DNA of 64,000 nucleotides, from NCBI RefSeq assembly GCF_025345565.1, contig NZ_CP054475.1, forward strand, positions 2,938,006 to 3,002,005, written 5' to 3'. The DNA is from Thalassolituus hydrocarboniclasticus (GTDB lineage: Bacteria; Pseudomonadota; Gammaproteobacteria; Pseudomonadales; Oceanobacteraceae). Below are positions 1,538 to 17,673 of the stretch, piece after piece. Made by a program: the position numbers and the translations under genes. Every line of letters begins with the position of its first letter. Position 1 is the first letter of the stretch. Under the pieces are notes generated by a model. It saw only the letters and a list, made by a program, of their open reading frames with translations. It had not been told where the DNA came from and did not search any database.

Positions 1538-1563
1538 TAAAAAAACCTCCCGCAGGAGGTTTT
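1538..1563 (-). terminator. Rho-independent terminator after dsbC
   Basis: AAACCTCC and GGAGGTTT pair around a CGCA loop. Reading the minus strand, the stem is followed by a run of seven T. It lies about 30 nt beyond the dsbC stop codon. Confidence 0.85.
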
Positions 1564-1591
1564 CAGGTACTTCAACAGGCTGATGCTGAAA

Positions 1592-2458
1592 TCACATCAC
1601 GCCGAGGCGACGGGCCAGATCATCCGCCGGCATATAGCCAGGGAACAGACGTCCATCATCGACAATAATGGCAGGAGTACCGGTTACACCCACTTCCTGA
1701 CCAAGATCGTACTGGGCAGCAATTGGTGCACCGCAATCTTTGCTCTTATCCATCATCGCCACAACCTGCCCCTGCAGAGCGCGGTACTGGTCTTCCAGTT
1801 CAGAAGAACCACCGGACTGACGCAGGCGCTGACCCAGAATGCTCATATCACGCTGAGTATTCTTCATGGTGGTCATAGCCGCCTTACGGTCCGCCTGACA
1901 CCAGACATAGTTAATCTTGCGGTAAGAGTCAGTCAGCTCGCCACTGCGCGGATCTTTGATACCGGCACGTGGATAAGCCAGATAACGCACGGTAATACCC
2001 AGTTCGTTCAGGCGCGGGATTTCCTGATGCAGCTTCTGGCAGTAGCCACAATCAATATCGGTAAAGACGTTGATCAGGGCTTTCTGCTCGCCCTTGGCTT
2101 TAAAGACCACGGTCTGTTTATCGGTGACGGCGGCCAGACGCTCAGCACGTTTCGGATTATTACGGTTCTGGGTGATATTCTGCGGACCTTCGGCACTCAG
2201 CTCATACAGCTCATCACGGTAAATAAAGTGGCTCAGATCCGGTGTCATATGCATCACAGACCCATCAATTAATACCACCTCCAGAATCTGGTTGCCTGCC
2301 AGAGGCGCAACTTCACGAACCTGCAGACGCGGACCGAAAGCCTGCACCAGCTTGGCTTCGACCTGCTTGTCGAGCGGCAGCGCTTTGTCAGCGGCGGCGC
2401 CCATTGCCGGTAACGTCAGGCTCAGGCCCAGCGCGGCGGCTAAAAGTGTTTTCTTCAT
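1592..2458 (-). CDS. dsbC: Thiol:disulfide interchange protein DsbC
   Basis: Periplasmic disulfide isomerase that reshuffles wrong disulfides and is kept reduced by DsbD. The start chosen at 2458 gives 288 residues with a classical signal peptide (MKKTLLAAALGLSLTLPAMGA). The open frame runs further upstream but only into the rplS spacer. An N-terminal dimerisation domain (about 25-90) is followed by a thioredoxin fold with the CGYC active site at 137-140 and the cis-proline loop GVTGTPAII near the end. A second cysteine pair (VWC...DCG) matches the structural disulfide of the family. About 30 extra residues lie between the active-site helix region and the DCG motif compared with E. coli DsbC. 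The gene has its own terminator at 1538-1563. Confidence 0.93.
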   Translation of the reverse strand: MKKTLLAAALGLSLTLPAMGAAADKALPLDKQVEAKLVQAFGPRLQVREVAPLAGNQILEVVLIDGSVMHMTPDLSHFIYRDELYELSAEGPQNITQNRNNPKRAERLAAVTDKQTVVFKAKGEQKALINVFTDIDCGYCQKLHQEIPRLNELGITVRYLAYPRAGIKDPRSGELTDSYRKINYVWCQADRKAAMTTMKNTQRDMSILGQRLRQSGGSSELEDQYRALQGQVVAMMDKSKDCGAPIAAQYDLGQEVGVTGTPAIIVDDGRLFPGYMPADDLARRLGVM

Positions 2459-2650
2459 TACTGCAACCTTTACGTCATCATTCAGGCTTGGAGGCCCAGA
2501 GCCCGTGTTTGTTCCGGGCCCTACCCTTTCAAATGCGCCTGTCGGTGTCAAGAAAGTAAGTGTCAAACCAGACAGCAGTATATCAGCCGTACGTGCTTTT
2601 CTGATGACAAACCCAGCACAGATATAACAACAAACATAAAAACGGGCATA

Positions 2651-2676
2651 AAAAAACGGGCCAGAGGCCCGTTTTT
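2651..2676 (-). terminator. Terminator of the rpsP-rimM-trmD-rplS operon
   Basis: ACGGGCC and GGCCCGT pair around an AGA loop, flanked by A- and T-runs, 15 nt past the rplS stop. The symmetry would allow termination in both directions. Confidence 0.9.
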
Positions 2677-2690
2677 CTGCAAGAGAAGGA

Positions 2691-3044
2691 TTAAACCTTT
2701 TCTTTGATACGTGCAGACTTACCGCTACGCTCACGCAGGTAGTACAGTTTCGCCTGACGCACGTCACCGCGACGCTTAACAGCCAGGCTGTCAATCATCG
2801 GGCTGTGAGTCTGGAAAGTACGCTCAACGCCCACACCGTGGGAGATTTTACGTACAGTGAATGCAGAGTTCAGGCCACGGTTACGCTTACCGATAACTAC
2901 GCCTTCGAACGCCTGCAGACGCTCACGGTTACCTTCTTTTACTTTAACCTGCACAACAACGGTATCACCGGTGCTGAATGCAGGGATGTTGTCTTTCAGC
3001 TGCGCATTTTCAATCTGCTGAATGATTGGGTTCTTGTTGCTCAT
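2691..3044 (-). CDS. rplS: 50S ribosomal protein L19
   Basis: Full-length L19 (117 residues), a large-subunit protein at the 30S-50S interface. The sequence aligns across its length with the family: an N-terminal IIQQIE segment, [45 protein letters not shown] and a C-terminal [19 protein letters not shown]. It is the last gene of the rpsP-rimM-trmD-rplS operon, 10 nt downstream of trmD, with a GGAG ribosome-binding site before the ATG. A strong terminator follows. Confidence 0.98.
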
Positions 3045-3054
3045 TGTTCGCTCC

Positions 3055-3810
3055 TTAACAGTCTGCTGAGTTCTGTTCTAGCTCTTGCAGATACTCTGTC
3101 AATAACCTTTGTTGCTCGTTTGTCAGTTCCAGCGCTTCCAGTAAATCCGGTCTGCGCTGCCAGGTTCTGCCCAGTGACTGCTTAAGGCGCCACTGGCGGA
3201 TCTTTTCGTGGTTGCCACTCAGCAACACGTCCGGTACGGCCTGCCCTTCGTAAACTTCCGGGCGGGTGTAATGTGGACAATCCAGCAAGCCTTCCATAAA
3301 GGAGTCCTGCTGTGCCGACTGGTCATGCCCCAGCACGCCGGGTACCAATCGGATCACGGCATCCATCAGCGTCATGGCAGCCAGTTCGCCACCACTGAGA
3401 ACAAAATCGCCAAGAGACCACTCTTCGTCGACTTCGCGCTCAATCAAACGCTCATCAATACCTTCATATCGTCCGGCCACCAGAATCAGTTTGTCGCGCT
3501 GAGCAAGCTCTAACACGCCGGCCTGATCCAGCTTGCGTCCCTGAGGTGATAGATAAATCACCTTAGCGCCTTCCCCTGCTGCCGCTTTGGCTGCGTGGAT
3601 GGCATCCTGCAGAGGCTGAATTTTCATCAGCATACCGGGGCCGCCGCCGTATGGACGATCGTCCACGGTCTGGTAGTTATCGTAGGCGAAATCACGCGGA
3701 TTCCAGCATTCGATACTCACTTTTTCCTGTTTGACTGCCCGCCCGCTGACACCATGGTCGGTGAGTGCGCGGAACATGTCAGGAAAGAGGGAAATAACCC
3801 CAAACCACAT
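3055..3810 (-). CDS. trmD: tRNA (guanine-N1)-methyltransferase TrmD
   Basis: SAM-dependent enzyme that methylates G37 of tRNA next to the anticodon and prevents frameshifting. The start at 3810 gives 251 residues beginning [13 protein letters not shown], as in other TrmD. The longer open frame to 3882 overlaps rimM and has no TrmD homology. Trefoil-knot SAM-binding blocks are clear: [24 protein letters not shown] and [22 protein letters not shown]-type residues. The basic C-terminal domain is intact. The start sits 16 nt past the rimM stop within the conserved ribosomal operon. Confidence 0.97.
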
Positions 3811-3826
3811 AATTACAACACCGGGC

Positions 3827-4366
3827 TTAAAAATCCGGGTCCCAGTCAACCTGGATTTCACCGTTATCCAGATCAACCTCAAGAACGATTGTTTCTGCGT
3901 ATGGAATCAGACGTTCGCGCTTATCAATGCTGCCTTCGCAACCTTTTACGCTCATCACCTGATTACCGCCGCCGGAATCAAACAGTTCTTTCACCTGGCC
4001 CAGCCACACGCCGTCGGTGTTAACCACCTTCAAGCCTTCGAGCTGGAACCAATAATGTTCGTCTTCTTCGAGTTCCGGTAACTCCGAAGTAGGTACACCG
4101 ATTTCAATCTGGGATAACGCCAGAGCGGCATCCCGGTCGGTAATTCCTGCCAGAGCTACAGCCAACCCTTTTGGCTGGAGTTTGCTGTCGGTCACCTTGA
4201 ATTCGCGCCACTGTCCGTTAATACGTAACAGCCAGGTCGGGTAATCCAGGATATTGGTCATGGGATCTGTGTACGAATACACCTTCACCCAGCCTTTAAT
4301 ACCAAATGCGGTGGTTACTTTACCGAGGACGGTGATTTCCTCACCCGCAATCTGGTCGTTCAACAT
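3827..4366 (-). CDS. rimM: Ribosome maturation factor RimM
   Basis: 30S assembly factor that binds S19 and helps 16S rRNA processing. The ATG at 4366 is preferred because CCGGAG lies just upstream and the 179-residue product then matches the usual length. A TTG at 4387, abutting the rpsP stop, would add seven residues. An N-terminal RimM beta-barrel ([19 protein letters not shown]) is followed by a PRC-barrel with [11 protein letters not shown] and [12 protein letters not shown]. It is the second gene of the operon, between rpsP and trmD. Confidence 0.95.
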
Positions 4367-4387
4367 CAGAACTCCGGTCGTCGCCAA

Positions 4388-4639
4388 TTAAGCCTGAGCT
4401 TTCTTGGCTTGCTTCAGTAAGCTAGCTACGCGATCAGTTGGCTGAGCACCTTTGGCCAACCAGTATTCAACGCGTTCCGCATCGATGCGGAAAGCAACTT
4501 CCTGGCCGCGAGCAACAGGGTTAAAGAACCCAACGCGCTCGATAAAGCGACCGTCGCGAGGGCTACGCGCGTCAGCTACGTTAATGTGATAAAAAGGACG
4601 TTTTTTAGAGCCACCACGGGCCAAACGGATTACTACCAT
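4388..4639 (-). CDS. rpsP: 30S ribosomal protein S16
   Basis: Full-length S16 (83 residues), needed for 30S assembly. It starts [19 protein letters not shown] and retains the family blocks [18 protein letters not shown] and [18 protein letters not shown]. It leads the rpsP-rimM-trmD-rplS operon. Upstream lies a leader of about 150 nt and a candidate promoter at 4788-4816. I see no terminator between it and the preceding biosynthetic operon, so read-through is possible. Confidence 0.98.
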
Positions 4640-4787
4640 AGTTTCAGATCACTCCGATCGTTTATCAAGGGACAGGTTTTGGGATCGCCTGCCGTTCATC
4701 AACTCATCTGCCCCAACACCATTACAGCGGCATGTTATGCACGCAAACATGGCATCCAGCCAGACGAGACCTAATAAAAGGGCGCGT

Positions 4788-4816
4788 AGTGTATAAAATC
4801 TGCCCTGTTGCCACAA
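4788..4816 (-). promoter_or_regulatory. Candidate sigma-70 promoter of the rpsP operon
   Basis: On the minus strand TTGTGG (4811-4816) and TACACT (4788-4793) are separated by 17 nt, inside a TTTTATACACT context. It is placed directly after the 4832 gene end and about 150 nt before rpsP. The call rests on motif match only. Confidence 0.45.
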
Positions 4817-4831
4817 GCATTCATTCACGCC

Positions 4832-6028
4832 TCAGACAGCACTGTCTTTGAGCTTATTACGATACAGCCACTGTTTAACCAGCAGCGCGGTCAGCGGGAA
4901 GGTAAGAATGTACAGGCCAACCACCGTCCAGCTCAGATCCAGCCACCAGCCAAGTATCAGCGCAACGCCAACCGCCGAGTCAATCTGGTCGATGGCGATA
5001 AACCAGTAACGCTGATCCTCAGGCACCTGCCCCGGCGCAATGCCCAGCCGACGCTTAAACCAGGAGTTGGGAAACTCCCCCAGAATATAACCAACACCAG
5101 CCATTGCCCCGGCCAGCAGCAGCGAATAGCCACTCCACACGGTCGGCCACTCCAGCGCCTGAAATATCAGTTCCAGTGGCCACAGACAGAGCGCGCCCAG
5201 CGCCGTCAGCAGCGGCACCAATAAAACGCCGCGCCAGGTTTTGTTGGCACCAAAGGCCGATTTCCACACCGGCCGGGCAAAAGAAGGCAGCACATCATTG
5301 CTGACACACCACATATGCGCCACACCGCCAATCACCACCGGCACCTGCAGGTACAGCGCCATCAGCAGCGGATGCAACGGCGCCTGTGCGCCCTTAGCTG
5401 CCAGCGTGGTGGCGCACAGCAGTGAGAAACCACCCAGCGTAATCCACAGCATCTGTGCCAGTGAGGTGAACTTAAAGAACGGCCGGGCGCGCAGCATCTG
5501 TACCGAAAACCACAGCAGCACCAGCGCCAGCAGAGCTTTGATAAAGGCAGTCCAACCCAGCCAATGCTCCAGCAATACCAATGGCGCAATAATCAGCAGG
5601 CTCCAGAATACCGGCATGCCCAGATAGGCAGGACGGGCATTGCCCTTGCTCGCATCCTCAATATTGCCGGTCTGATTGAATACCGACAGACGGATACAGC
5701 CCGCGGCGACCATAGTCACCAGCGCCACGGCATAAGCACCATCAAAACCCCACTGCAATAAAATCAGCGCCGGACTGACCAGATAAATCAGCACGTCCAT
5801 AAAACCATCGAGGTAGCGACCGAACTCACGGGTCAGCCCCCAGCGCCGGGCCAGCAAGCCATCCAGCGCATCGGCGGTCATCGCCAGAAACAGCAACGCC
5901 AGCGCCGTCAGAGTTTCCTGCTGCAGGGTAAAGAACAGCGCCAGCAAGGTCAGCGGAACACTGCTCAGGGTTATCAGATCAACCCGGTTCAGGCGGATAA
6001 TCCAGCCACCGGCCGGTAAACTGTTCAT
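4832..6028 (-). CDS. Fusion of CDP-alcohol phosphatidyltransferase and CarS-like CDP-archaeol synthase domain
   Basis: A 398-residue polytopic membrane protein with two lipid-enzyme modules. The N-terminal half has the complete CDP-alcohol phosphotransferase signature D53-x2-DG-x2-AR-x8-G70-x3-D74-x3-D78. A following RLSVFN...YLGMPV segment resembles type II phosphatidylserine/archaetidylserine synthases. The C-terminal half carries FGANKTWRG (259-267), GEFPNSWFKRRLGI (317-330) and DQID (347-350), the block order of archaeal CDP-archaeol synthase (CarS, DUF46). Together they would activate a lipid phosphate with CTP and swap CMP for an alcohol head group. This role is inferred, and the true lipid is unknown. 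It is the last gene of the seven-gene operon; its ATG overlaps the ligase stop by 4 nt (ATGA). Confidence 0.8.
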   Translation of the reverse strand: MNSLPAGGWIIRLNRVDLITLSSVPLTLLALFFTLQQETLTALALLFLAMTADALDGLLARRWGLTREFGRYLDGFMDVLIYLVSPALILLQWGFDGAYAVALVTMVAAGCIRLSVFNQTGNIEDASKGNARPAYLGMPVFWSLLIIAPLVLLEHWLGWTAFIKALLALVLLWFSVQMLRARPFFKFTSLAQMLWITLGGFSLLCATTLAAKGAQAPLHPLLMALYLQVPVVIGGVAHMWCVSNDVLPSFARPVWKSAFGANKTWRGVLLVPLLTALGALCLWPLELIFQALEWPTVWSGYSLLLAGAMAGVGYILGEFPNSWFKRRLGIAPGQVPEDQRYWFIAIDQIDSAVGVALILGWWLDLSWTVVGLYILTFPLTALLVKQWLYRNKLKDSAV

Positions 6029-7695
6029 AGTGAGGTACTCTCCGTTTTATTCCAGGTAACCACCCTGTCGGTACGGCCTGCAGCCGCCATCTGACGCAGC
6101 AACGGACGGTCAATCTTGCTGTTGTGGCGACCATCCACCGGCATGTACTTCAGCCGGGCAACCTGCCATTCGCCGGCTGGCAGCAAAGCCAGCAACGCAC
6201 TTTTAAGGTTTTCCAGTGGCTCATCACAGCAGACAAATAACCAGCCCTGCTGCTCATGGCCAATCAGCGCGCTGCGCTGTACACCGGCCAGCGCATCCAG
6301 TTGTTGCTCCAGCCAGAGCGGCTGCAAACGGCGCTGGCTGCCAAGCTGCACCGCATCTTTTACCCGGCCGCTGAGCCACAGCCGGCCCCGTTCATCAAGC
6401 CAGCCGGTATCACCGGTACGGTGCCAGACCAGACCATCGGCGCGCGGGATTTTATTTTCCGCATCAGCCTGAGGGTTGTGGTAATAACCACGCAGCACAT
6501 GATTGCCGGCCACCAGAATTTCGCCCTCTTCGCCCACGCCACATCGGCCGTCGAGCAGATCACTTTCATTAACCAGACGTTCATTGTTTGCAGGCAGATT
6601 GCAGATCAGCACATCGGTGTCTTCAGCAATCTCGCCCACCAGCAAACCGGCCACACCGGGCTGTTCACCACTGTGCAGATAATCCTGCAGCAGCAACGAG
6701 GCAATGGGCTCAGCTTCGGTGGAACCATAGGCAATGCGCGCATAGGCATTGGGGAAGACCTGCAGCAGATCGCGCGCCAGCAGCTGGCTGACCGGCGCAC
6801 CACCAATCACCAGACTGGTGATCTGCGGTAAGGTCGTCTTACGCAGCAACAGCTCATCACACAGGGCGCGGAAATAAGCCGGCGCACCACTGATGCGGGT
6901 AACCCCCTGCTGCTGCCAGCGTGTCAGAACCGCAGCTGCATCTACCTGTGCCGGAGCAGCCAGATCCACCTGTGGCAAACAACTGCTCATGCCGCAACTG
7001 AGGTTATGCAGCACCATGACCGGGAAACACGGGCTGTCACGCTCGCCATCGGCATCCGGCCAGTGATGACGGATCGCCGCATGCTGAGCATCCAGGCTGG
7101 CATGAGTGCGGTCAGCGCCTTTCGGCCGGCCGGTACTGCCGGAGGTAAAAGAAATAAGACCGTGATCGCCTGTGGGAGGCTCCGCCAGCTGCGGCCATGT
7201 GCCGCTATCAACAGACGCCAGCTTGCCCTTAAACGCCGTCAGCGCTTTACTCAGCGAACGACTTCCTAACGTTGTCCGGTCGATACTGAAGCGCTTTAAA
7301 GACCAGAGCTCAGGAATCAGCCAGAACCAGCGCAACAGCGCCTGCATACTGACAATTGCCACCGGGCGGGCATCGGCCAGCGCCATACGGATTTTCTTGC
7401 GGCCCATGCCGGTATCGATAAACACCGCCACCAGACCGGAGGCCAGCAAACTCAGCACCACCGCATACAGGTCAACCGACGGCCGGGCGATCACCACCAC
7501 CCGCTCACCGGGCTGCAACCCCTGCTGCTGCCACAATAACTGCAGCGCGCTCACACGCTGCATCAGCTCGCCATAGGTACATTGCTCAGCGCCCAAACAA
7601 CGACGCCCCTGCATCAATGGAATATCCAGCGCCAGCCGCTGCGGATTACGCCGCGCCTCCTCAAGCACATGACGGCAGAAATTCAGCCCGCTCAT
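6025..7695 (-). CDS. AMP-forming acyl ligase, OleC-like (ANL superfamily)
   Basis: A 556-residue adenylating enzyme predicted to activate a carboxylic acid as acyl-AMP. The start at 7695 (MSGLNFCRHVLEEARRNP) is chosen because it lies 1 nt after the preceding stop (TGA-T-ATG). The open frame to 7776 would run into that gene. ANL motifs are the P-loop FTSGSTGRPKG (183-193), YGSTEAEP, the HRTGDTGWLDERGRLW block with SGRVKD, and a terminal NSKID lysine motif. The FTSGSTG and YGSTEA style resembles OleC (beta-lactone synthetase of olefin synthesis), but no oleA, oleB or oleD lies nearby. The substrate is unknown. It sits between a GNAT gene and the CDP-alcohol/CarS fusion. Confidence 0.82.
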   Translation of the reverse strand: MSGLNFCRHVLEEARRNPQRLALDIPLMQGRRCLGAEQCTYGELMQRVSALQLLWQQQGLQPGERVVVIARPSVDLYAVVLSLLASGLVAVFIDTGMGRKKIRMALADARPVAIVSMQALLRWFWLIPELWSLKRFSIDRTTLGSRSLSKALTAFKGKLASVDSGTWPQLAEPPTGDHGLISFTSGSTGRPKGADRTHASLDAQHAAIRHHWPDADGERDSPCFPVMVLHNLSCGMSSCLPQVDLAAPAQVDAAAVLTRWQQQGVTRISGAPAYFRALCDELLLRKTTLPQITSLVIGGAPVSQLLARDLLQVFPNAYARIAYGSTEAEPIASLLLQDYLHSGEQPGVAGLLVGEIAEDTDVLICNLPANNERLVNESDLLDGRCGVGEEGEILVAGNHVLRGYYHNPQADAENKIPRADGLVWHRTGDTGWLDERGRLWLSGRVKDAVQLGSQRRLQPLWLEQQLDALAGVQRSALIGHEQQGWLFVCCDEPLENLKSALLALLPAGEWQVARLKYMPVDGRHNSKIDRPLLRQMAAAGRTDRVVTWNKTESTSL

Positions 7696-7696
7696 A

Positions 7697-8824
7697 TCAG
7701 CCTTCCTGAGCAGCCGCGCGGGCCAGCTTCTTGGTAAACAAACCGTACACCCGCACTTCTTCGCCGTTGTGGGCATAACGCAGTGACGGATTATCTTCGC
7801 GCACCAGAGCCGCAGCCACGCGCTGATAGTGAGGCGCCGCCCAGCAGGTCAGCTGCATCGACATCAGGGTGAACAGACCAGCCTGACGATAATCGGGATG
7901 AATAGCCCCGGTTTTCGCCAGCGCCAGACGCGGCTCAGGCAACAGTGCCGCATGCTGGTCGTAGCGGATATCCGCAGCCTTCATCAATGAGCCAGCAACC
8001 TGCAGCGGACTGTAATCCGGATAGCACAGGAAAAATCCGGCAATAGCACCGCTTTTATGCCGTACCAGTACCGACGACTGCGGGCAGAGCTTGCGCGCAA
8101 AAGGCTCACCACAGGCAGCGGCAAACTGTGCTTCGCTGATCGGGCTGTAAGCAAAGTTCTGGCGGAACATGCGGTCGATTAACGGATACAGCTCCGGCAG
8201 ATTATTCATCCAGGTGTCGCCATCCAGACGGCTGACAATAAATTCACCCTGCAATTGCTGTAACGCCTGTGCCAGTGGTTTTTCCATCTGCTGCGCCAGT
8301 GCCGGTAAATTATTATTAATGCGGGTGTAATAGCGGTAATGAATGTCGTAACCCAGCGTCTGTAATTGCTCGCCATAACTGAGCGGATTATAGGGTTCGC
8401 CGGCAAATACCGGCCCCGGCATACCGCCCTGCTCGTCGGCCAGGCGCAAACGGTACGGGCCGTAGGTATTAAAATTAATCGGCCCGTAAATACGCTCCGC
8501 TCCCTGCTCGGCGGCCCAGCGTTCAAAGCGGGCGAATAAATCCCGCTGCGCATTCAGTACCGCGTCGGTGTCGCCGCTGTTTTCCCAGAAACCGAAATAG
8601 GCAACGGCTTCATCATTAATACGCTGCTCGGGATTAAAAAAACCGGCTAAACGACAACCTTCTGCGGTTTCTGCCCAGGCACGGCCAGTGCGGAAATAAT
8701 CATTTGCCGTACTGAACTGACGGCGCACTGCGGCTTCGTCTTCACCCAGCCAGAAGGCATCGTCGCTGTAACGCTCACGGGCAATGCGGAAAAACTCATC
8801 ACTCAGGTGCGGAATGCTGCTCAT
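7697..8824 (-). CDS. YghO-like GNAT-family acyltransferase
   Basis: A 375-residue soluble protein resembling the YghO/double-GNAT group. The first half has a conserved IYGPINFNTYGPYRLRL block followed by F.GEPYNPLSY, and the second half a SSVLVRHKSGAIAGFFLCYPDY strand-turn-strand typical of GNAT acyl-CoA sites. Related bacterial GNAT proteins include the N-acyltransferase of bacterial ceramide synthesis. An N- or O-acyl transfer step is therefore plausible here but not shown. It overlaps the upstream dikinase-like gene by ATGA and is 1 nt from the downstream ligase, so the three are probably translationally coupled. The assignment is to family level only. Confidence 0.6.
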   Translation of the reverse strand: MSSIPHLSDEFFRIARERYSDDAFWLGEDEAAVRRQFSTANDYFRTGRAWAETAEGCRLAGFFNPEQRINDEAVAYFGFWENSGDTDAVLNAQRDLFARFERWAAEQGAERIYGPINFNTYGPYRLRLADEQGGMPGPVFAGEPYNPLSYGEQLQTLGYDIHYRYYTRINNNLPALAQQMEKPLAQALQQLQGEFIVSRLDGDTWMNNLPELYPLIDRMFRQNFAYSPISEAQFAAACGEPFARKLCPQSSVLVRHKSGAIAGFFLCYPDYSPLQVAGSLMKAADIRYDQHAALLPEPRLALAKTGAIHPDYRQAGLFTLMSMQLTCWAAPHYQRVAAALVREDNPSLRYAHNGEEVRVYGLFTKKLARAAAQEG

Positions 8825-11610
8825 GCCACCGACTCCTCGGCCGCAGCCATCGTATCAGCAGCATTAAATTCCAGCCGTTCTACACGGCCACTGGAACCAT
8901 CCATGCGCACCAGCTCCTGGTCTGCCAGTAATTTGGTTAACCCCGGAATACCCACCACCGCAGGAATTCCCAGCTCACGGGCCACCACCGCCGAGTGGCT
9001 GAGGGTAGAACCACGCTCCACAAGAATACCGCCAGCGGTTGGGAATAACGGTGCCCAGCCCGGATCGGTACGCACGGTACAGAGAATCTGACCATTTAAA
9101 TTCAGCTCATCGTCCGGTGAAAAAATCAGCCGCACTTTCTGCTCAACAATACCCGGATAACAACCAGTGCCCTGCAGACTGCCATCAGCAGCTGCGGTTT
9201 CTTCCTGAGCGTGCGGGTATTCAAAGCGATTATTGCAATACAAAGGTCCGCGGGTGTGGAAATGATGCGGTGGTTCGTCCGCTGCGTAAGACGCAAACTC
9301 CGCACGACGGATTGCCACCAGCGGTTTTAAATCAGCAGTCACCGAGCGGCCATCGGCATAGGCGTAGATTTCTTCCAGAGTCAGATAAAAAATATCCCCG
9401 GCCTGCTCAAGTTGCGAATAAAACACCAGCTGCTCACCGAGCTGACGGAAAATATCGCGGTACAGTCCAAACATCCGGGTACGCGCCAGACGCATATTTT
9501 CGCGGTTGCGGATGGCATCGCGCAGGCGGCTTAAATCACGCTGGAATTTTTTTAAGCCACGGCGACCAAATTGCTTCTGCAACGCCGGCAATACCGCCTG
9601 CTCTGCTTCGGCACGGAAACGGGCTTCGTTTTCGGCCAGCGTTGCCAGGGTCAGATCGTCACGGCTTAAAAAGTTTTTCAGCACCGCAAACATAAAGGAT
9701 GCGTCCTGACGCAACGTTACCGACTCCAGCTTCAGCTCGCCCATGGTGCGGTCGCCGTACAGTTCAATGTACTGCAGACAGCGGCTGTGGAAATCCGGAA
9801 ATTTTAATTGCAGCAGAACCAGAAGCTGATCGTTTGGCTGATCTTTTAAGCACGCCAGCAATTCCGGCTGTGTGCGCGCTTCATCGCATAAACGCAGCAG
9901 GAATTTGGTAGGTTCAGTACTTTCGATGCCTTCTTCACCGGACAGCAGGTTGTTCTGCACCAGTGCCGGATTTTCTACGCCGAGTTTTTCCAGCCAGCGG
10001 TGCACCTTGCCATTCATCATCATTACGTAAAAATCGTTAACGATGGGCGTGGTCCAGTTATTCAGCAGGGTTTTATCCAGGGTACGGCTGAGGCTGATTA
10101 ATGCATCCATGCTCAGGCTGTGCAGTTTATTACGCTCGACCCGGGCATATTCAGCGGCAAAGTGCGCGCGGAATTCGGCAACCAGATCATCCATACGGCG
10201 GAAACGGCTGAGCATGGCAAACAAGGCGCGCAACATCTGCGGCAGGCGTGCCAGTTTTTCGCGGCCACTCAGTTCACGGTCCTGAATCAGATCCACCGGA
10301 TCGGTCAGGCCCATCATGCGTTCCATATCGGCTTTATTGGTACGGAAAGATGGCAGGAATAATAACCCGCGATACCAGTTATTAATGTTGTAATACACCC
10401 GGCCACGAATCAGGCCGAGCATATTTTCCAGCATATCCTGATGCTGCTGTACGACATTTTCACGCACACCCAATAAACGCAGGGTTTGCTCGTAAACGGT
10501 TTTATAAGCGCGGTTAGCAAAGCTGAAGGTCAGCGGTGTGGTTACCCCACAATAGGATTCCTGAATATTGGAATTATCCCAGACCTGCAAACGGTCGGTG
10601 TCGGGGTTCTGTTCCGGTAAACGCGTCACCGGACGTGCCTGCAGAATATAAAACGCACCGTCTTTCAGACACCATTCAATATCCTGCGGTGCGCAATAGG
10701 CTTCCGCAATGCGGCGTCCCAGATCACGCAGGGCAAAAATCTGCGTGTCGGTTAAACAGGCAACCGTACGTTTATCGGCGGCCACTTCGTGTTCGCGGGT
10801 GCCGCCCTGTTCAGCATCCTGCACCAGACACAGGTCTTTATCGTTGACCTGTACGCTGAGTTCATTGCTGTTTAAACGCACACTGATTTCATCGGCATTG
10901 CAATGGCCGGAAACAAGACCTTCACCACAACCCCAGGTAGCCGAAATAAAAGCTTCGCCGCGATCGCCGTTAACCGGATTGGCAGTGAACATCACCCCGG
11001 CCACATCGGCATCAATCATGCGCTGAATAATCACTGCGGCATTAATATCGGTCAGGCCCAGACCTTTCTGGATGCGATAAGCCAGAGCACGGGCATTAAA
11101 GGCACTCTGCATCACGGTAATAATGGCCGCGGCAATCTGCTCTTCACCACGCTGATATAAGCAGCTGTCCATCTGTCCGGCAAAAGACGCACCTTCAGCA
11201 TCTTCACCCACCACCGATGAGCGCACCGCCCACCAGCCATGTGCCAATGCATCGCTGCCAATGGCTGTGCGCACGTCGTCGGTAATGGCAACTAATAAAC
11301 CGCCATCGCGGATTTTCTGCTGAATCCCCTGGGCAACCTGCTCCAGCGCACTGCTTTCGGGTTTATCGCCCAGTGACGCCAGTTCGGTTTCGATCCACTG
11401 CTCAAGATTCAGCGAGCGTAACTGTGCACGGAAAGCCGCAACGGGTACCACCCACCATTGCGGCACCTGAAGACTATTAATGGCCAGAGTCTGGCGGCTT
11501 AAAAATGCCAGGTTAAAGGCTTTGCCACCGATCTGATCAGCACTCAGCGCTGCGGCCTGCAGCGCATCCAGACAATAATTAGCCGGGCTGTTTACAGTGT
11601 CTTTTTTCAC
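8821..11610 (-). CDS. PEP-synthase/rifampin-phosphotransferase-like dikinase
   Basis: A 929-residue three-part phosphotransferase. The N-terminal third is an ATP-grasp/PPDK_N domain (GGKAFNL at 28-34, WWAVRSSVVGEDA, GVMFTANPVNGDRG, DIEWCLKDGAFYILQARPVTR). The middle 400 residues match no catalytic family I recognise, and may bind the acceptor as in rifampin phosphotransferase. The C-terminal swivelling domain has LVERGSTLSHSAVVAREL with the phosphohistidine H872. Such enzymes split ATP via phospho-His and pass one phosphate to a small molecule. The length is nearer rifampin phosphotransferase than PEP synthase, and no PEP/pyruvate TIM barrel is evident. It starts with GTG overlapping the HMG-CoA reductase stop by 4 nt. 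The acceptor is probably an intermediate of this operon's pathway (inference). Confidence 0.78.
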   Translation of the reverse strand: MKKDTVNSPANYCLDALQAAALSADQIGGKAFNLAFLSRQTLAINSLQVPQWWVVPVAAFRAQLRSLNLEQWIETELASLGDKPESSALEQVAQGIQQKIRDGGLLVAITDDVRTAIGSDALAHGWWAVRSSVVGEDAEGASFAGQMDSCLYQRGEEQIAAAIITVMQSAFNARALAYRIQKGLGLTDINAAVIIQRMIDADVAGVMFTANPVNGDRGEAFISATWGCGEGLVSGHCNADEISVRLNSNELSVQVNDKDLCLVQDAEQGGTREHEVAADKRTVACLTDTQIFALRDLGRRIAEAYCAPQDIEWCLKDGAFYILQARPVTRLPEQNPDTDRLQVWDNSNIQESYCGVTTPLTFSFANRAYKTVYEQTLRLLGVRENVVQQHQDMLENMLGLIRGRVYYNINNWYRGLLFLPSFRTNKADMERMMGLTDPVDLIQDRELSGREKLARLPQMLRALFAMLSRFRRMDDLVAEFRAHFAAEYARVERNKLHSLSMDALISLSRTLDKTLLNNWTTPIVNDFYVMMMNGKVHRWLEKLGVENPALVQNNLLSGEEGIESTEPTKFLLRLCDEARTQPELLACLKDQPNDQLLVLLQLKFPDFHSRCLQYIELYGDRTMGELKLESVTLRQDASFMFAVLKNFLSRDDLTLATLAENEARFRAEAEQAVLPALQKQFGRRGLKKFQRDLSRLRDAIRNRENMRLARTRMFGLYRDIFRQLGEQLVFYSQLEQAGDIFYLTLEEIYAYADGRSVTADLKPLVAIRRAEFASYAADEPPHHFHTRGPLYCNNRFEYPHAQEETAAADGSLQGTGCYPGIVEQKVRLIFSPDDELNLNGQILCTVRTDPGWAPLFPTAGGILVERGSTLSHSAVVARELGIPAVVGIPGLTKLLADQELVRMDGSSGRVERLEFNAADTMAAAEESVA

Positions 11611-14381
11611 AGGCTTTGATCTCCGTTTTCCAGACGCTGAATTTCCAGATCCAGAAGACGACGGAAGGTACGCACCACCCGCTCCATAAACGGATAATGA
11701 CGGAAGGTATGTGCCATCACATACATAGGTACACGGTTAACAACCAGATCCCACAGTGTCAGGGTAAAGCCGTAACGCCATTGTGCGGCATCCAGCGTAA
11801 CGCCGGCAGCCTGCTCCAGCTGTACACGGTGACGCTCAATTAAAGTTTCCACCAGCTGCGGATCAAAATCCGGATTCAGGGTAAATACCAGCAATTCAGC
11901 CAGATCGTGTTGCGGTGCCTGAACGGTCGCCAGTTCCCAGTCGTAAGCGCAGAGTGTCAGTTCACTACCCTGACGACGGAAGGCAATATTGCGCGGATTA
12001 AAATCGTTATGGATCAGGGTTTTCGGTAAGGCATCCAGCTGCGGATACCACTGCTCCATGCTGTACACGCGATCGCGGAAGCGCTCCATATCACCAGCAC
12101 TGAACCATTCCGGGAATTCCTGCTGGGCGTGAGCACCAAGCATTTCCCACAGGCGGGTTTTTTCCAGCATATTGGCGGTATTCGGTGCGTCGCAGATCCA
12201 GTCCTGCGTCAGCAGCTCATCTTCGCGGTTCAGCCAGATACTGTGCACCTGAGCAATGCCATCCACGGCGGCATTAAAGTGTTCGGTCGTCCAGCCGGAA
12301 GTGTCGTCAGCGGAATCCATTAATTCCAGACCGTCGAGATATTCCTGCACCAGTACATAGGCTTCGCGTGAGGCATCCGCCCAGGCCATATAGGTGGTCG
12401 GAGCAACGCGGCGGAAACGTTCATCCTGCTGTGCCATCACTTCCAGTTCACGCACATGACAGCCACGGAAACCAACATGCTTGCGGAATTCGTTATAGGC
12501 GTGCGCCAGACGGGCATCACACATCGACGCCATAGAATTCAGCATCAGAATAACTTCGTCATCCAGAGGCTTTACTTTGACCATCACATCCAGCGGCTGA
12601 TCGGCATCGTCCAGCGTCAGGCGGAACGGATAATGGCCAACCAGTTTATTGATTTTATGCGCCGTCAGTTCGGTAATAATACTGCTGCCTTTACCCGACA
12701 GGCTCAGGCTCTGCTGCGCACTGACCTGCACGTTGCGGTTTAACCCCTGAGATAATGCGCGGCTGAAAAACTCCGGATTTAAATCACCCAGCTTTAACCA
12801 TTCTACCGGGCGGTTGCGGCCGAGTTTTTCGTGAGCGCGGGCAAACTGATCGCTGGCAATGGCCGACAGCGTGGATAAATCCAGCGCCAGACAGTAACCG
12901 GCTATCACTTCGGCCAGTTTATGCGCACAGCCGGGGCCCGCGCAGCCAATCATCTGCAGGCATTCTTTCTGCTGCGGCAGACTGGTGCCGCCGCCGACCG
13001 TACCGACTACCAGACTTGGCAGACGCAGCGTGGCATAAATCGCATTATCATCGGTCATTTCCATATGCAGCTGGCCGATGGCCGACTCGTGTACACAGGC
13101 AATGTCCTGACCGGTGGCGGTAAACATCGCACCGATCACGTTGGCGATATTAATATTCAGACCGACCATACCGGCTGCAATACTGCCGCCAACAAAATGG
13201 TTATAGGCGGTAAACAGTTCGCGCGCGCTGACTTTTAATACCTTACGGCAGACGTCATCGCTGAGTACGGCTTCTGCCAATACGCGTACACCACGACCAC
13301 GCAGGAAAGAGTTATAGGTAACTTTTTTATCGTTCGAGAGGTTGGCCTCAACCATAAAGTTTTCGAACTCAATGCCTTCAAAAGCACGCATTTCGGCCAG
13401 AATCCACTGGCACGCCTGCCAGGTGCAGGTGGTGGTCATATTCTGACCCGCAGCATCACCGGTTTCATACACAAACTGTACGTGCACCGTGCGGCCCATT
13501 AATTCAGTATGCACTTCCACCAGATTGGCGTAGTTCGAATATTTACGGGTTTGGGCGGCAATTTCGTGCTGATGGTCTTTTACCCATTCGGCAAAAAATA
13601 ACGCCGAAGATAAATCGCTTAATACGAATACCGGTACGCGCAGCATACGCTGACCCAGAACCCGCACATTCACACCACCGGCACGGGAAATCGCTGTGGC
13701 ACCACGGGTAGCCGAAGCCACCAGAGCACCTTCAGAGGTTGCCATCGGCGCGTAAAATAAACCGTTCGCGTGTTCACCCCGAATATGCAATGGCCCGGCA
13801 ACACCTACCGGTATTTCGACCGTACCGATTAACGCTTCAATATTACTGACCAGCGCTTTCGGATCGAGAGTAATATCCGCTACCCGCTCCATCGCGGCAC
13901 CGGTTTCTGCGCGGACAAAACCCAGACGCTCCTGACGGGCCTCTTCGGTGTATAAACCACGCGCCGGTACTTTCGGCAACGTCAGTTCGTCGTATAAACG
14001 ACCATCATCTTCTGCCGCACGCTGACGCAGGGCATAACTGATCTGCCACAGCTGACGGCTGTTTTCGGCAGCGTTTTCACCATCGGTATCGTTACGCAGT
14101 ACCAGACGCCATAATTTAGAATTCTGCGCGACCTCCAGTTTGCTGATGATTAAATCGCGCAGCACATATTCTTTGTCGGCCAGAACCAGAGTCACCGTGG
14201 TAAAGGCAGCATCCAGCTGCCATTGTTCGCAGGGCTCGGCCAGCACGCATAAATGGCTTTTGGAAACATCCACGGCTTCGGCATTGCGCCAGTTATCACC
14301 GCACTGCAGACTTACGCTGGCGTTCTGTTCAGGGCTGAATTCATAACGGGCTTGAGTAGTATAAACGCGGGCCTTTTTCAT
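11607..14381 (-). CDS. Class I HMG-CoA reductase fused to an APH-like kinase
   Basis: A 924-residue fusion. Residues 1-115 form a small beta-rich domain, possibly PilZ-like. Residues 130-545 are HMG-CoA reductase: EALIGTVEIPVGVAGPL, PMATSEGALVAS with E217, NLSNDKKVTYNSF with K352/K353, ATGQD with D426, VGTVGGGTSLPQQKE and FARAHEKLG with H517. All four expected catalytic residues are present. The NADPH-site motif, usually DAMGMNM, reads DAAGQNM. Residues 600-880 are an aminoglycoside-phosphotransferase-type kinase with HNDFNPRN (H791, D793, N798) and YDWE (D814). The simplest reading is mevalonate formation coupled to phosphorylation of mevalonate or a later product. The gene overlaps both neighbours by 4 nt. 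Confidence 0.85.
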   Translation of the reverse strand: MKKARVYTTQARYEFSPEQNASVSLQCGDNWRNAEAVDVSKSHLCVLAEPCEQWQLDAAFTTVTLVLADKEYVLRDLIISKLEVAQNSKLWRLVLRNDTDGENAAENSRQLWQISYALRQRAAEDDGRLYDELTLPKVPARGLYTEEARQERLGFVRAETGAAMERVADITLDPKALVSNIEALIGTVEIPVGVAGPLHIRGEHANGLFYAPMATSEGALVASATRGATAISRAGGVNVRVLGQRMLRVPVFVLSDLSSALFFAEWVKDHQHEIAAQTRKYSNYANLVEVHTELMGRTVHVQFVYETGDAAGQNMTTTCTWQACQWILAEMRAFEGIEFENFMVEANLSNDKKVTYNSFLRGRGVRVLAEAVLSDDVCRKVLKVSARELFTAYNHFVGGSIAAGMVGLNINIANVIGAMFTATGQDIACVHESAIGQLHMEMTDDNAIYATLRLPSLVVGTVGGGTSLPQQKECLQMIGCAGPGCAHKLAEVIAGYCLALDLSTLSAIASDQFARAHEKLGRNRPVEWLKLGDLNPEFFSRALSQGLNRNVQVSAQQSLSLSGKGSSIITELTAHKINKLVGHYPFRLTLDDADQPLDVMVKVKPLDDEVILMLNSMASMCDARLAHAYNEFRKHVGFRGCHVRELEVMAQQDERFRRVAPTTYMAWADASREAYVLVQEYLDGLELMDSADDTSGWTTEHFNAAVDGIAQVHSIWLNREDELLTQDWICDAPNTANMLEKTRLWEMLGAHAQQEFPEWFSAGDMERFRDRVYSMEQWYPQLDALPKTLIHNDFNPRNIAFRRQGSELTLCAYDWELATVQAPQHDLAELLVFTLNPDFDPQLVETLIERHRVQLEQAAGVTLDAAQWRYGFTLTLWDLVVNRVPMYVMAHTFRHYPFMERVVRTFRRLLDLEIQRLENGDQSL

Positions 14382-15340
14382 ACGGCAGCTCCCAGCAGGT
14401 GAATGTTTAATGCAGCGGCGATAATCACCACCAGATAGCCCAGCAACATCGTCAGGGCGACGGCTTTCTCGTTATTTTCACGGCCGCTTTCATGGGGGGA
14501 TTGTTTGAATTTGAAAACAGCTTTAAGAGCCAGTACCAGAACCAGTACCAGCAATACGGCATAAACCACTAATACTGCGACATCCAGCAGCCACAGTAAT
14601 ACCAGCTGGTTCACCACCATGGCGCAGACCAGCGCAATGACCAGATTAGCGGCACCCTGCACGCCAAGGATGCGCGAGTAAGAATCGACCGTTTCGCGCT
14701 CTTCTTCCGGGCCACGGGTTTTACGGGTAATTTCAAAACAGAAGCCGCTGATAAACGCCAGGCTCATCATCGCCATTAAAGGTGCAGAATTCAGTAGCTG
14801 CATTACCGGCAGTTGTGGTTGTGCCATCGCCGCCAGCCAGAGCACGATCAGCGGCATAATCGCCATATGGCTCAGGGCATACAACAGCAAACGTTTTTCC
14901 AGCCAGGCGCCACAAAAAAATTCGGCGCCCATTAAACACAGGTAAACAAACATTACGGCCCAGACGATCAGGGTATCGGTACCCAGAAACAGGCTCCACA
15001 GCAGCTGGGCAATTACCGCAATAATGCCCAGACCTTTCAGGTGCGTCAGAGTAATGCGGCCACTCTGCAGTACGCGTTGCGGGTGATTTTTAACATCCAG
15101 CTCGTAATCTTTATGTTCATCAAAAATACGGATGGTTAAAAACAACGACCAGGTAACCAGACAGGCAACAATATCACTCCAGTTAAAAAACCATTCGCCC
15201 TGACTGGCGCGAACAACACTGGCAGTGACCAGATAAAGAATAAAAAACAGCAAGGCATTGGCGAACGGAAAACGTTCGTCCATCCAGGCGCGGATACGGC
15301 GCAGCAACGGCTCGCCGGCGATAACAGCAGAGTTAGTCAT
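14378..15340 (-). CDS. UbiA-family prenyltransferase
   Basis: A 320-residue integral membrane protein with about eight to nine predicted transmembrane segments. The first aspartate-rich motif is IRIFDEHKDYELD followed by HPQRVLQSGRI, and the second is the charged loop RGPEEERETVDSYS. Both are in the right place for UbiA enzymes that move prenyl groups from prenyl diphosphates to an acceptor. The family includes archaeal DGGGP synthase, UbiA, MenA and heme O synthase. The motifs do not tell me which acceptor is used. Its stop overlaps the HMG-CoA reductase ATG (ATGA). The exporter gene ends 35 nt upstream. Confidence 0.8.
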   Translation of the reverse strand: MTNSAVIAGEPLLRRIRAWMDERFPFANALLFFILYLVTASVVRASQGEWFFNWSDIVACLVTWSLFLTIRIFDEHKDYELDVKNHPQRVLQSGRITLTHLKGLGIIAVIAQLLWSLFLGTDTLIVWAVMFVYLCLMGAEFFCGAWLEKRLLLYALSHMAIMPLIVLWLAAMAQPQLPVMQLLNSAPLMAMMSLAFISGFCFEITRKTRGPEEERETVDSYSRILGVQGAANLVIALVCAMVVNQLVLLWLLDVAVLVVYAVLLVLVLVLALKAVFKFKQSPHESGRENNEKAVALTMLLGYLVVIIAAALNIHLLGAAV

Positions 15341-15375: not shown

Positions 15376-17673
15376 TCAGTCGCGATCCAACAGCATCAGC
15401 AACAAAGGTAAAAGAATAAGATCGGCCAGTAAGGCGACAATAACCGTCAGAGCCATCAGCCCACCCATGCCCCAGGTCGGCGAAAAAGGTGACAACAGCA
15501 ACAGTGCAAAACCGGCGGCCAGTACCAGGCTGGTAATAATCATGGCCACGCCAACGGTAGAAAATGCGTATTCGATGGCCGCTTCGGTGCTTTCACCTCT
15601 GGCCCTGGCGCTGCGGTACTTGGCAAGAAAATGCACGGTGTCATCAACCACCAGACCAAGACTCATACAGGCAACAATACTCAGCCCCAGATCAACATGG
15701 CCGCTGATATAACCCCAGATACCGTAAGCCAGCAGTGCCGGCAGTAAATTCGGCACCAGGCTGATCAACCCGAGACGTACCGAACGCAGTACCAGCATCA
15801 TGACCGCCGAAATTAATACCAGCGCCAGTAATGTGCCCTGAAACAGGCTGATGCTGTTACGGTCAGAAATCTGGGCGAACACCATATCCAGACCACTGCC
15901 CGGAGCAATACTCAGCGCCGGAGTATGTTCTGCCGCCCAGTCGAGCAGAGCCTGATCAAAGGCCACTAATTCACGTGAGGTACGCTTGAATAAATGCACG
16001 GTAAAACGGCTGGCGGTCTGATCAATAGTAAGACGCTCATTCAGACCCATACCAAAAGGCAGCGACATTTCGTACAACAGCATTGCCTGAGCGACCTGCT
16101 CATCGGAAGCGGGAATGCGGTAGTAATCTTTATCACCATCATGCAGCGCCTGATTCAGTGTCAGTAATGGCTGATGCAGACTGTCAACAAAACCGACTTC
16201 AGCAAAGGTTTCCAGATGCTCAGCCAGTTGCTGCAACTGTTGCATAGGCTCGGTACGGTACAGCGAGCCACCATCCTGTGCCGCAATGCGGTACTGAATA
16301 AAATTAACGCCGTTAAGTTTATCGTTCTGCAGATCCAGTGCCTGGCGAACCGCAAAGGATTCATCGTAATACTGATGCCACTGCTCATTGAATTTCAGCT
16401 GACTGACACCGGCTGCCAGTATCGCTGACACAATGACCGCCCCCAGCAGTAACGCCCGCGGATGCGGCTGCAATACCCGCTGCCAGAATGTGAGCAATAA
16501 GCCACTGAGCCATTGTCCGGGATGCGCCAGCGTCCGGCCCGGCTGTATTTTTGGCTGTGGTAAAACACGCAGTGCGGCAATAAACAGAGTCAGACTCAGC
16601 ACCGCAGCTAACAGTGCGGCAAAAGCGACTAAATTGCCCAGGTCGCGATATGGCGGAGACTCGCTGAAATTCAGGCACAACAAACCAAGCGCAGTAGTAA
16701 TCGAAGTAATCCACACCGGGCGGATATTGGATTTAACCGCTTCCGCCAGTGCAGGTACTTTGCTCATACCGGCACGCAGCCCATGCTGATAGGTCGCCAG
16801 AATATGCAGGCAGTCAGCAATTACGATAATCATAATCATCGATGGCACCACACCCACCACCGGAGTCAGGCGTGCCGTGGTCAGTCCCAGCGCACCGGCC
16901 CACCCCAGAGCACCAAAGGTCGCCATTACACTCAGCAACGTCAGGGTTAATGCCAGAAAAGTACCGGCGAGAGAGCGGGTCAGAAAAAAGATACCAGCGA
17001 AAATCAGCAGATAACTGGCCGGAATCAAGGCTTCCATATCGCGCTCTACGGCTTCAGCCAGCGCCAGATTAATAATCGCCGAACCAAACAACTGTACATT
17101 CAGATGTTGCAGGTCAGTTTCAGCGAGTAATTTACGGGTATAGGCGACCAGTTCGGCGGTTGCTTTTTCGTCACCGTCCGGCAATGAAAGGCTGACAATA
17201 ATTAATGCCAGATCGCCGTCTTTATTGACCAGACGATTCAGCAGATCGGGTTGAGTCCGGATATATTCCAACTCCCCCGAAATATCCCAAGCAGACGCTT
17301 GCTCAGGCCGATAAAAATCATCGATATTAATATTATCATCAGCAGACTGAATACGCTGATAATTGGTAAGGGAATCCACCCGGCGGGCGTAGGGAATTTC
17401 CCAGGCGACCTGGGTAAGTTGTGCAATTTCATTTAACGCACGGGGATCAAGCACAGTGGCCGACGATGATGGCTGCAACAGAAAGGTCAGCGTATCCTGT
17501 TTATTAAAATCCTTTTCAAGCTGCTCAAAGCTCAGCAGCTGCGGATTATCAGCACTGAAATAAACCCGGAAGTCTGATACAAATGACAGCTTTGTCGCCC
17601 CTGCTGTCAAACTTATTATTAGTATTATGGCGGCAACAATAACCAGCCACGGATAACGCAGTGAGAATGACAC
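15376..17673 (-). CDS. RND/MMPL-family exporter (HpnN-like)
   Basis: A 765-residue membrane transporter with two repeats of one N-terminal helix, a large periplasmic loop and five to six helices. This is the layout of MMPL/HpnN-type RND proteins that move lipids or hydrophobic products. The N-terminus reads YPWLVIVAAIILIISLTAG followed by FRVYFSADNP. The second half carries SIVACMSLGLVVDDTVHFLAKYR, the helix-4 acidic motif of the family. The GTG start at 17673 is preceded by AAGGA. It is the first gene of the seven-gene operon, and I infer that it exports or flips the end product. Confidence 0.85.
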   Translation of the reverse strand: MSFSLRYPWLVIVAAIILIISLTAGATKLSFVSDFRVYFSADNPQLLSFEQLEKDFNKQDTLTFLLQPSSSATVLDPRALNEIAQLTQVAWEIPYARRVDSLTNYQRIQSADDNINIDDFYRPEQASAWDISGELEYIRTQPDLLNRLVNKDGDLALIIVSLSLPDGDEKATAELVAYTRKLLAETDLQHLNVQLFGSAIINLALAEAVERDMEALIPASYLLIFAGIFFLTRSLAGTFLALTLTLLSVMATFGALGWAGALGLTTARLTPVVGVVPSMIMIIVIADCLHILATYQHGLRAGMSKVPALAEAVKSNIRPVWITSITTALGLLCLNFSESPPYRDLGNLVAFAALLAAVLSLTLFIAALRVLPQPKIQPGRTLAHPGQWLSGLLLTFWQRVLQPHPRALLLGAVIVSAILAAGVSQLKFNEQWHQYYDESFAVRQALDLQNDKLNGVNFIQYRIAAQDGGSLYRTEPMQQLQQLAEHLETFAEVGFVDSLHQPLLTLNQALHDGDKDYYRIPASDEQVAQAMLLYEMSLPFGMGLNERLTIDQTASRFTVHLFKRTSRELVAFDQALLDWAAEHTPALSIAPGSGLDMVFAQISDRNSISLFQGTLLALVLISAVMMLVLRSVRLGLISLVPNLLPALLAYGIWGYISGHVDLGLSIVACMSLGLVVDDTVHFLAKYRSARARGESTEAAIEYAFSTVGVAMIITSLVLAAGFALLLLSPFSPTWGMGGLMALTVIVALLADLILLPLLLMLLDRD

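Follow-up and report, generated by a model that had tools for sequence, protein, structure and literature searches.

A CDP-alcohol phosphotransferase fused to a CarS-like domain in Thalassolituus hydrocarboniclasticus ends a conserved operon with a putative role in lipid synthesis

The window analysed here is a stretch of 64,000 nucleotides from the genome of Thalassolituus hydrocarboniclasticus (contig NZ_CP054475.1, positions 2,938,006 to 3,002,005). On its minus strand, an open frame of 398 codons with an ATG start (4832..6028) encodes a fusion of a CDP-alcohol phosphotransferase (CDP-OH-PT, residues ~7–207) and a CarS-like CTP transferase (residues ~219–387), as identified by Pfam and NCBIfam searches, an AlphaFold2 (AF2) model and fold matches. 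The exact DxxDGxxAR-x8-GxxxDxxxD signature that the original prediction had placed in the first half is found at residues 53–78 (DALDGLLAR-RWGLTREF-GRYLDGFMD), and its fixed residues do not vary across 9 aligned sequences, the window's among them. The Pfam search identified CDP-OH_P_transf (PF01066) at residues 17–163 (52.5 bits, cut-off 22, E 9.7e-14) and CarS-like (PF01864) at residues 259–395 (26.2 bits, cut-off 22, E 9.3e-6), while CTP_transf_1 (PF01148), the CdsA family, scored 15 bits, under its cut-off of 24. Fifteen NCBIfam families, including PssA, archaetidylserine synthase and CarS models, matched the fusion and none reached its curated score: the best match of the first half was TIGR00473 pssA (64.1 bits, curated score 107), NF038087 archaetidylserine synthase scored 55.8 bits (cut-off 240) and NF003114 archaeal CDP-archaeol synthase 35.2 bits (curated score 148). 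Because the scores lie far under both the PssA and the CarS equivalog cut-offs, the substrates of the fusion may differ from those of PssA and CarS.

The second half was expected to follow the block order of CarS, and comparison with the CarS of A. pernix (5guf in the PDB) bears this out: GANKTWRG, WFKRRLGI and DQID in the window protein are equivalent to GDGKTIEG, FVKRRLGI and DQLD, with Glu in 27/27 cluster CarS rows at a position where 5guf has Asp. In the AF2 model, built from a 58-row alignment (pLDDT 92.9, pTM 0.85), the closest solved fold to the first half is phosphatidylserine synthase 7b1k (Z 19.4, rmsd 2.1, 177 residues aligned, model 7–207). The second half superimposes on 5guf (model 219–387, rmsd 2.6, 143 of 158 residues aligned) with a Z of 13.3, to be read with the caveat that for helical bundles values under ~13 may reflect arrangement alone; as there was no CdsA chain among the rows of this comparison, it excludes nothing about the CdsA fold. 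The profile of 27 CarS halves retrieved 5guf as the sole sequence match in the PDB at E up to 10 (E 0.0019), and matched a profile of 9 bacterial stand-alone CarS (E 1.9e-21, 118 columns) better than one of 10 CdsA (E 8.5e-9, 88 columns). These 27 cluster halves, 9 bacterial CarS and 10 CdsA, together with 5guf, copied from the PDB alignment, gave a tree of 47 rows; the L060 CarS row, which contains a stop codon, was excluded from the alignments. The cluster CarS halves form a single clade (support 99/98), which joins the bacterial stand-alone CarS at 90/78, the CdsA rows separate at 100/99, and 5guf, the sole archaeal row, lies outside the bacterial rows on a long branch. The HMM scores, the profile–profile E-values and the 5guf fold support the classification of the second half as CarS-like rather than CdsA-like.

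The fusion gene is preceded on the same strand by six further genes. The first of the block encodes an MMPL/RND family transporter (15376..17673, PF03176, E 1.8e-34), which was not found in every cluster. It is followed by a UbiA-family intramembrane prenyltransferase (14378..15340; PF01040, E 2.1e-12; PRK05951, 209 bits, cut-off 239), whose sole sequence match in the PDB at E up to 10 is the archaeal DGGGP synthase 6m31 (E 3.3e-4). The next gene (11607..14381) encodes a class-I HMGR homologue with an FcrA-type pocket (residues 149–522; PF00368, E 4.1e-113) fused to an APH/EcKL kinase domain (residues ~624–856; APH, E 8.1e-9; EcKL, E 2.5e-7). The protein encoded at 8821..11610 is a PEP-synthase-like phosphotransferase (PF01326, PF00391; NF004883, 1254 bits, cut-off 1063) with a PPDK ATP-binding domain and a swivelling His domain; the domain search gave no match to the pyruvate/PEP barrel in it. 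By sequence, its closest PDB entries are 5fbs/5hv1, which are deposited as phosphoenolpyruvate synthase and which we take to be rifampin phosphotransferases; the protein may act as an alcohol phosphotransferase. The frame at 7697..8824 had no Pfam family above cut-off; its AF2 model (pLDDT 92.1) and the best Foldseek match, the tandem GNAT 7q3a (E 2.4e-10), point to a tandem GNAT-fold acyltransferase; it may resemble bacterial ceramide synthase. An AMP-forming acyl ligase of the fatty acid CoA ligase/OleC-like type (6025..7776; AMP-binding, E 1.4e-39; PRK09274, 450 bits, cut-off 478) directly precedes the fusion, and its true start is probably near 7692, to judge from where the alignment of its orthologues begins. 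Adjacent frames share 4 bases at 6025–6028, 8821–8824, 11607–11610 and 14378–14381, which argues that the fusion gene is the last of an operon rather than an isolated gene. Elsewhere in the window, a low-GC stretch (0.43 at 28–30 kb) harbours a minus-strand gene (27046–31623) for a 1525-aa STAND/NACHT-type protein that weakly matches the defence proteins LmuA and PtuA and has a sub-threshold Cap4 nuclease match, a candidate anti-phage gene.

Some CDP-OH-PT match was found in 55/55 relatives, and a long match (E below 1e-50) in 10/55, all among the 34 relatives that belong to the same family. The neighbourhoods of the nine other long-match genomes contain the whole seven-gene block in seven; in an eighth (L026) the block is also there, with MMPL cut off where the retrieved stretch stops, and the ninth (L025) is a short contig with the ligase and the fusion only. 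Scanning 84,980 species genomes with patterns revealed at least 53 loci, a lower bound, among which the nearest named relative by the fusion gene is Thalassolituus alkanivorans (97% identical). They include Oleispira, Bermanella, Endozoicomonas, Marinobacter, Moraxellaceae, Zooshikella, Atopomonas, gamma proteobacterium HdN1, 13 Photorhabdus loci, Limnobaculum, Kosakonia, two Spirochaetes MAGs, a Beijerinckiaceae MAG and three Fibrobacteres MAGs. The set of eight core domains is complete in 38/53 loci, including 13/13 Photorhabdus loci, and MMPL is present in at least 18 of these 38, many loci stopping close to its place. Eight of the 15 incomplete loci are shorter than 17 kb (L033, L036, L038, L046, L047, L049, L060 and L076), and the remaining ones (L037, L039, L051, L078 and L079–L081; 17.8–21.1 kb) lack members for other reasons. 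In L051 (7857–15586), P450-like and alpha/beta hydrolase-like genes, recognized by eye, adjoin the cluster, as does a gene for a condensation/alcohol acetyltransferase-type protein. A search of 72,556 plasmid records for plasmid carriage gave no match. The titles and abstract openings among the open-licence PMC matches listed (preprints outside the scope) do not describe this gene combination; the part of PMC12419801 available to us mentions other HMGR or GNAT–ligase neighbourhoods, not this gene set. As far as this literature survey reaches, the operon is apparently widespread and undescribed. The CDP-OH-PT/CarS fusion varies known enzymes in a new way; of greater interest is the operon that contains it.

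The genes of the operon are joined differently in different lineages. CDP-OH-PT and CarS form one open frame in 14/53 loci, which excludes chance as an explanation of the two-half architecture; they lie in different frames in 33/53, and six loci (L051, L076 and L078–L081) were not scored for this junction. The 33 include the frameshift-like L032, a MAG close to the window species, in which a frame change near 10522–10621 (about residue 175) breaks the fusion. In L051, CarS shares a frame with the acyl ligase, and in L042 the ligase, CDP-OH-PT and CarS are a single frame. HMGR and the kinase are in one frame in 41/41 loci scored for both. From these changing partners we argue that the steps are successive. 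The proposal that the fusion unites consecutive activities in one chain is therefore reasonable, but the covalent link itself is dispensable, given the 33 loci with separate frames. The phosphatidylserine synthase-like fold of the first half and its best NCBIfam match, pssA, would also agree with a spare phosphatidylserine-type synthase that uses ordinary CDP-diacylglycerol and belongs to an operon that is merely a loose collection of genes. However, the window genome (4.07 Mb, single contig) encodes a separate CdsA and has two further CDP-OH-PT matches, so that the fusion with its CarS half is not the genome's sole CDP-lipid set, and the gene block has remained intact across distant lineages with fusions in three combinations; we regard the spare-synthase explanation as quite unlikely.

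The HMGR homologue deserves separate consideration. FcrA is described, in the accessible part of its paper (PMC11948995), as a homologue of HMGR whose substrate for reduction is fatty acyl-CoA, not HMG-CoA, and that differs from HMGR by a Glu in place of Ser684, the loss of a conserved Lys (printed as Lys795) and a bulky residue in place of Leu862. Equivalents of the catalytic E559, K691, D767 and H866 are retained in 42/42 HMGR–kinase rows, in which the equivalent of S684 is Glu in 25 and Asp in 17, that of L862 is Phe in 42/42, and the K735 column, whose placement may be off by one or two positions since the Lys of 6hr7 itself falls outside it, reads H in 16, N in 13, Q in 12 and L in 1. The HMGR domain of the operon thus has the catalytic residues, and replacements at the three pocket positions that distinguish FcrA, with some uncertainty in the K735 column. 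All three Fibrobacteres rows have K in that column, and five of another six rows have R; among the six HMGR rows grouped under DUF3419, the contig of L125 is too short to show DUF3419. Our residue table omits L121 (same genome as L153, with rows like L039), L122 (the window), L129 (partial) and L123, L124, L127, L132, L138 and L140 (class-II-like or poorly aligned), and L128, L130, L133, L135 and L136 yielded no HMGR row. The HMGR homologue of the operon is probably not an HMG-CoA reductase. In seven other gammaproteobacterial HMGR-like rows (L112–L117 and L119) position 684 is Ser, position 862 is Trp and the 735 column lacks Lys; these possibly constitute another FcrA-like subgroup. HMGR-family genes occur in 72/369 genomes of the class, 8 of the 14 HMGR regions retrieved have no UbiA or PEP-synthase-like partner, and fewer genomes (11/369) have a close match to the PEP-synthase-like protein (E up to 1e-60).

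Since the HMMs name the HMGR and APH families, one might suppose that the HMGR and its fused kinase make phosphomevalonate and that the operon makes an isoprenoid. Pathway partners were searched for in 20 cluster genomes (a sample outside which L063 and L075 lie). HMG-CoA lyase was found above cut-off in 12 of them, including the window's, so that leucine breakdown can supply HMG-CoA there; against this, the other eight genomes, among them all four Photorhabdus genomes searched, have no HMG-CoA lyase above cut-off. Mevalonate kinase was above cut-off in 0/20 (sub-threshold in 6) and HMG-CoA synthase in 1/20, with no match to either in the window genome. In these searches the HMGR homologue thus lacks the mevalonate-pathway partners expected of it. 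The sole HMG-CoA synthase match above cut-off among the 20 (71.5 bits) is in a Photorhabdus luminescens genome (L105), and, as E. coli is among the control genomes with a match, a weak match proves little. The residues of the HMG pocket are moreover replaced, including K735, which in HMGR forms a salt bridge with the HMG carboxylate according to the available portion of PMC9500038. The phosphomevalonate explanation is in our opinion very unlikely. Mevalonate as the main reading was rejected on the searches for HMG-CoA synthase, mevalonate kinase and HMG-CoA lyase, although the lyase matches in 12/20 genomes still count for it.

The combination of a CarS-like half, a first half with some similarity to archaetidylserine synthase (NF038087) and a UbiA protein whose only PDB match is the DGGGP synthase recalls archaeal ether-lipid synthesis, of which the operon could be a bacterial version, with the fusion channelling CDP-archaeol to head-group exchange. 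The GGGP synthase (PcrB, PF01884) is above cut-off in 4/20 cluster genomes, three of them Photorhabdus. However, a PcrB search of the window genome gave no match, and the CarS halves are a clade of their own joined to bacterial CarS, in a tree with one archaeal row; a grouping with archaeal CarS gets no support from this sparse archaeal sampling. An archaetidic-acid substrate, which the original prediction names for the archaeal steps, accordingly finds no support, and we consider the archaeal explanation highly improbable. The domain call of the original prediction is correct, its pathway reading partly so.

Some clusters replace the whole head-group module. In the three Fibrobacteres MAG loci (L079–L081, 3/3) APH and CarS are absent and HMGR stands alone; between CDP-OH-PT and HMGR lie a CdsA-type enzyme (PF01148; E 2.6e-33, 6.2e-32 and 4.8e-31) and a DAGK/YegS-type kinase (PF00781 in L080, copies about 56% identical in L079 and L081). 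Among the 53 loci and the window, the DAGK query matches L079–L081 only, and the CdsA query matches these and, trivially, CarS in L042. In five gammaproteobacterial genomes (L166, L168, L169, L170 and L174), a DUF3419 protein and a membrane protein come after HMGR, UbiA and the PEP-synthase-like protein; Pfam identified DUF3419 in two of the five genomes (E 4.4e-72 and 3.7e-61), and the others have copies 50–63% identical. In one genome the PEP-synthase-like protein and DUF3419 are one chain, and in a sixth (L167) the stretch retrieved contains these two only. Queries with the DUF3419 protein and with the adjacent 440-aa membrane protein had no match in the 53 loci or the window, and NCBIfam has no name for either. 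The motifs of the membrane protein suggest that it may be CTP-kinase-like (VTE5/SEC59), a label without HMM support. BtaA belongs to DUF3419. In the accessible part of PMC10685587, BtaA acts on diacylglycerol with S-adenosylmethionine, and a locus annotated as DUF3419 is treated as a betaine-lipid synthase. The three head-group modules share one denominator, a lipid with a free hydroxyl or phosphate.

Other clusters have no HMGR. A Spirochaetes locus (L037, 19.9 kb) encodes the PEP-synthase-like protein, GNAT, ligase, CDP-OH-PT–CarS and UbiA, without HMGR and kinase; L171 (genome G394, 1067–12916) contains a class-III aminotransferase, two PEP-synthase-like proteins, CDP-OH-PT, CarS, GNAT and UbiA. 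L171 also has an ICMT/PEMT-type methyltransferase, and this variant may reveal the chemistry of the backbone. The Skermanella locus (L078) has only CarS, CDP-OH-PT and UbiA, and in L036 and L039 other members are missing. Clusters without HMGR imply that the lipid alcohol may come from different sources, or that HMGR as a core step is too narrow a reading.

Could the operon instead make a secreted natural product through a CDP-activated intermediate, and not a membrane lipid? The OleC-like ligase, a PigC/RedH-like match of the PEP-synthase-like protein and the MMPL exporter would fit, and large NRPS-like genes, recognized by eye, lie beside the Kosakonia cowanii cluster (L075, 11172–21100). 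Such genes were seen, however, at that locus only, of the ten with frames inspected, and the variant head-group modules belong to membrane-lipid enzyme families (CarS, CdsA, lipid kinase, CDP-OH-PT, DUF3419); the natural-product explanation seems unlikely to us.

Taken together, the domain and fold calls, the operon, the fusions and the module swaps make the fusion most likely a CDP-lipid synthase joined to a head-group transferase. From these and the pocket residues we infer, with moderate confidence, that it catalyses the final two steps, CTP-dependent activation and transfer of the head group, in a pathway for a phospholipid derived from fatty alcohol. The ligase would supply acyl-CoA, which the FcrA-like HMGR homologue would reduce to an alcohol, and the fused APH-type kinase would phosphorylate this fatty alcohol or else the completed lipid alcohol. 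Further chains may be added or activated by UbiA, the PEP-synthase-like phosphotransferase and the tandem GNAT, the roles of UbiA and the PEP-synthase-like protein being guesses. The CarS-like half would then convert the lipid phosphate and CTP to a CDP-lipid, the CDP-OH-PT half would combine this with a polar alcohol to give the head-group lipid, releasing CMP, and MMPL would export the product. A bolder version, which is possible yet doubtful, is that the operon constitutes an independent bacterial route to alkyl-ether phospholipids, which applies archaeal logic to fatty alcohols and uses plug-in head-group modules, so that the product would be a phospholipid or a betaine-type lipid depending on the lineage. 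Here the FcrA–kinase fusion would convert acyl-CoA to alkyl (perhaps allylic) phosphates, the PEP-synthase-like enzyme would turn them into diphosphates, the DGGGPS-like UbiA would form the ether bond and the CarS/CDP-OH-PT fusion would add the head group. If the fatty-alcohol phospholipid reading is right, a class of membrane lipids would have been missed in cultured bacteria such as Photorhabdus, Marinobacter and Kosakonia. The variant clusters suggest evolutionary exchange of entire head-group modules (CarS; CdsA and a lipid kinase; DUF3419) around a core that stays constant, and lipid building in bacteria with archaeal-type enzymes becomes a testable question. The automatic labels 'CDP-archaeol synthase', 'HMG-CoA reductase' and 'phosphoenolpyruvate synthase' are probably misleading for these genes.

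Among known systems, the CDP-alcohol phosphotransferases of the PssA and archaetidylserine synthase type (PF01066; 7b1k) share the exact signature and the fold with the first half, which scores under both curated cut-offs. CarS, the CDP-archaeol synthase (PF01864; A. pernix 5guf), shares the fold and the order KTxxG – KRRxGI – DQxD with the second half; in contrast to it, the window protein is fused to CDP-OH-PT, has Glu for an Asp and belongs to a clade of its own. A comparable arrangement is IPCT-DIPPS (4mnd), a CDP-OH-PT with a nucleotidyltransferase, in which, by the deposited name, one chain makes and uses the CDP substrate; its cytidylyltransferase is presumably a soluble sugar-type domain, not CarS. 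At the level of the pathway, the archaeal DGGGPS – CarS – archaetidylserine synthase route resembles the operon in bringing together homologues of UbiA, CarS and CDP-OH-PT, whereas the operon adds the HMGR–kinase, ligase, GNAT and PEP-synthase-like proteins, and, as in the comparison with CarS alone, the window genome differs by having no GGGP synthase match. The word 'kinase' has 0 occurrences in the main text of the FcrA paper (PMC11948995). FcrA, as far as the available part of that paper describes it, is like the operon HMGR in retaining the catalytic residues and in the changes at three substrate-pocket positions; the bulky residue is Trp in the N. pharaonis FcrA and Phe in the operon HMGR, which, unlike FcrA, is fused to a kinase and is part of a phospholipid-type operon.
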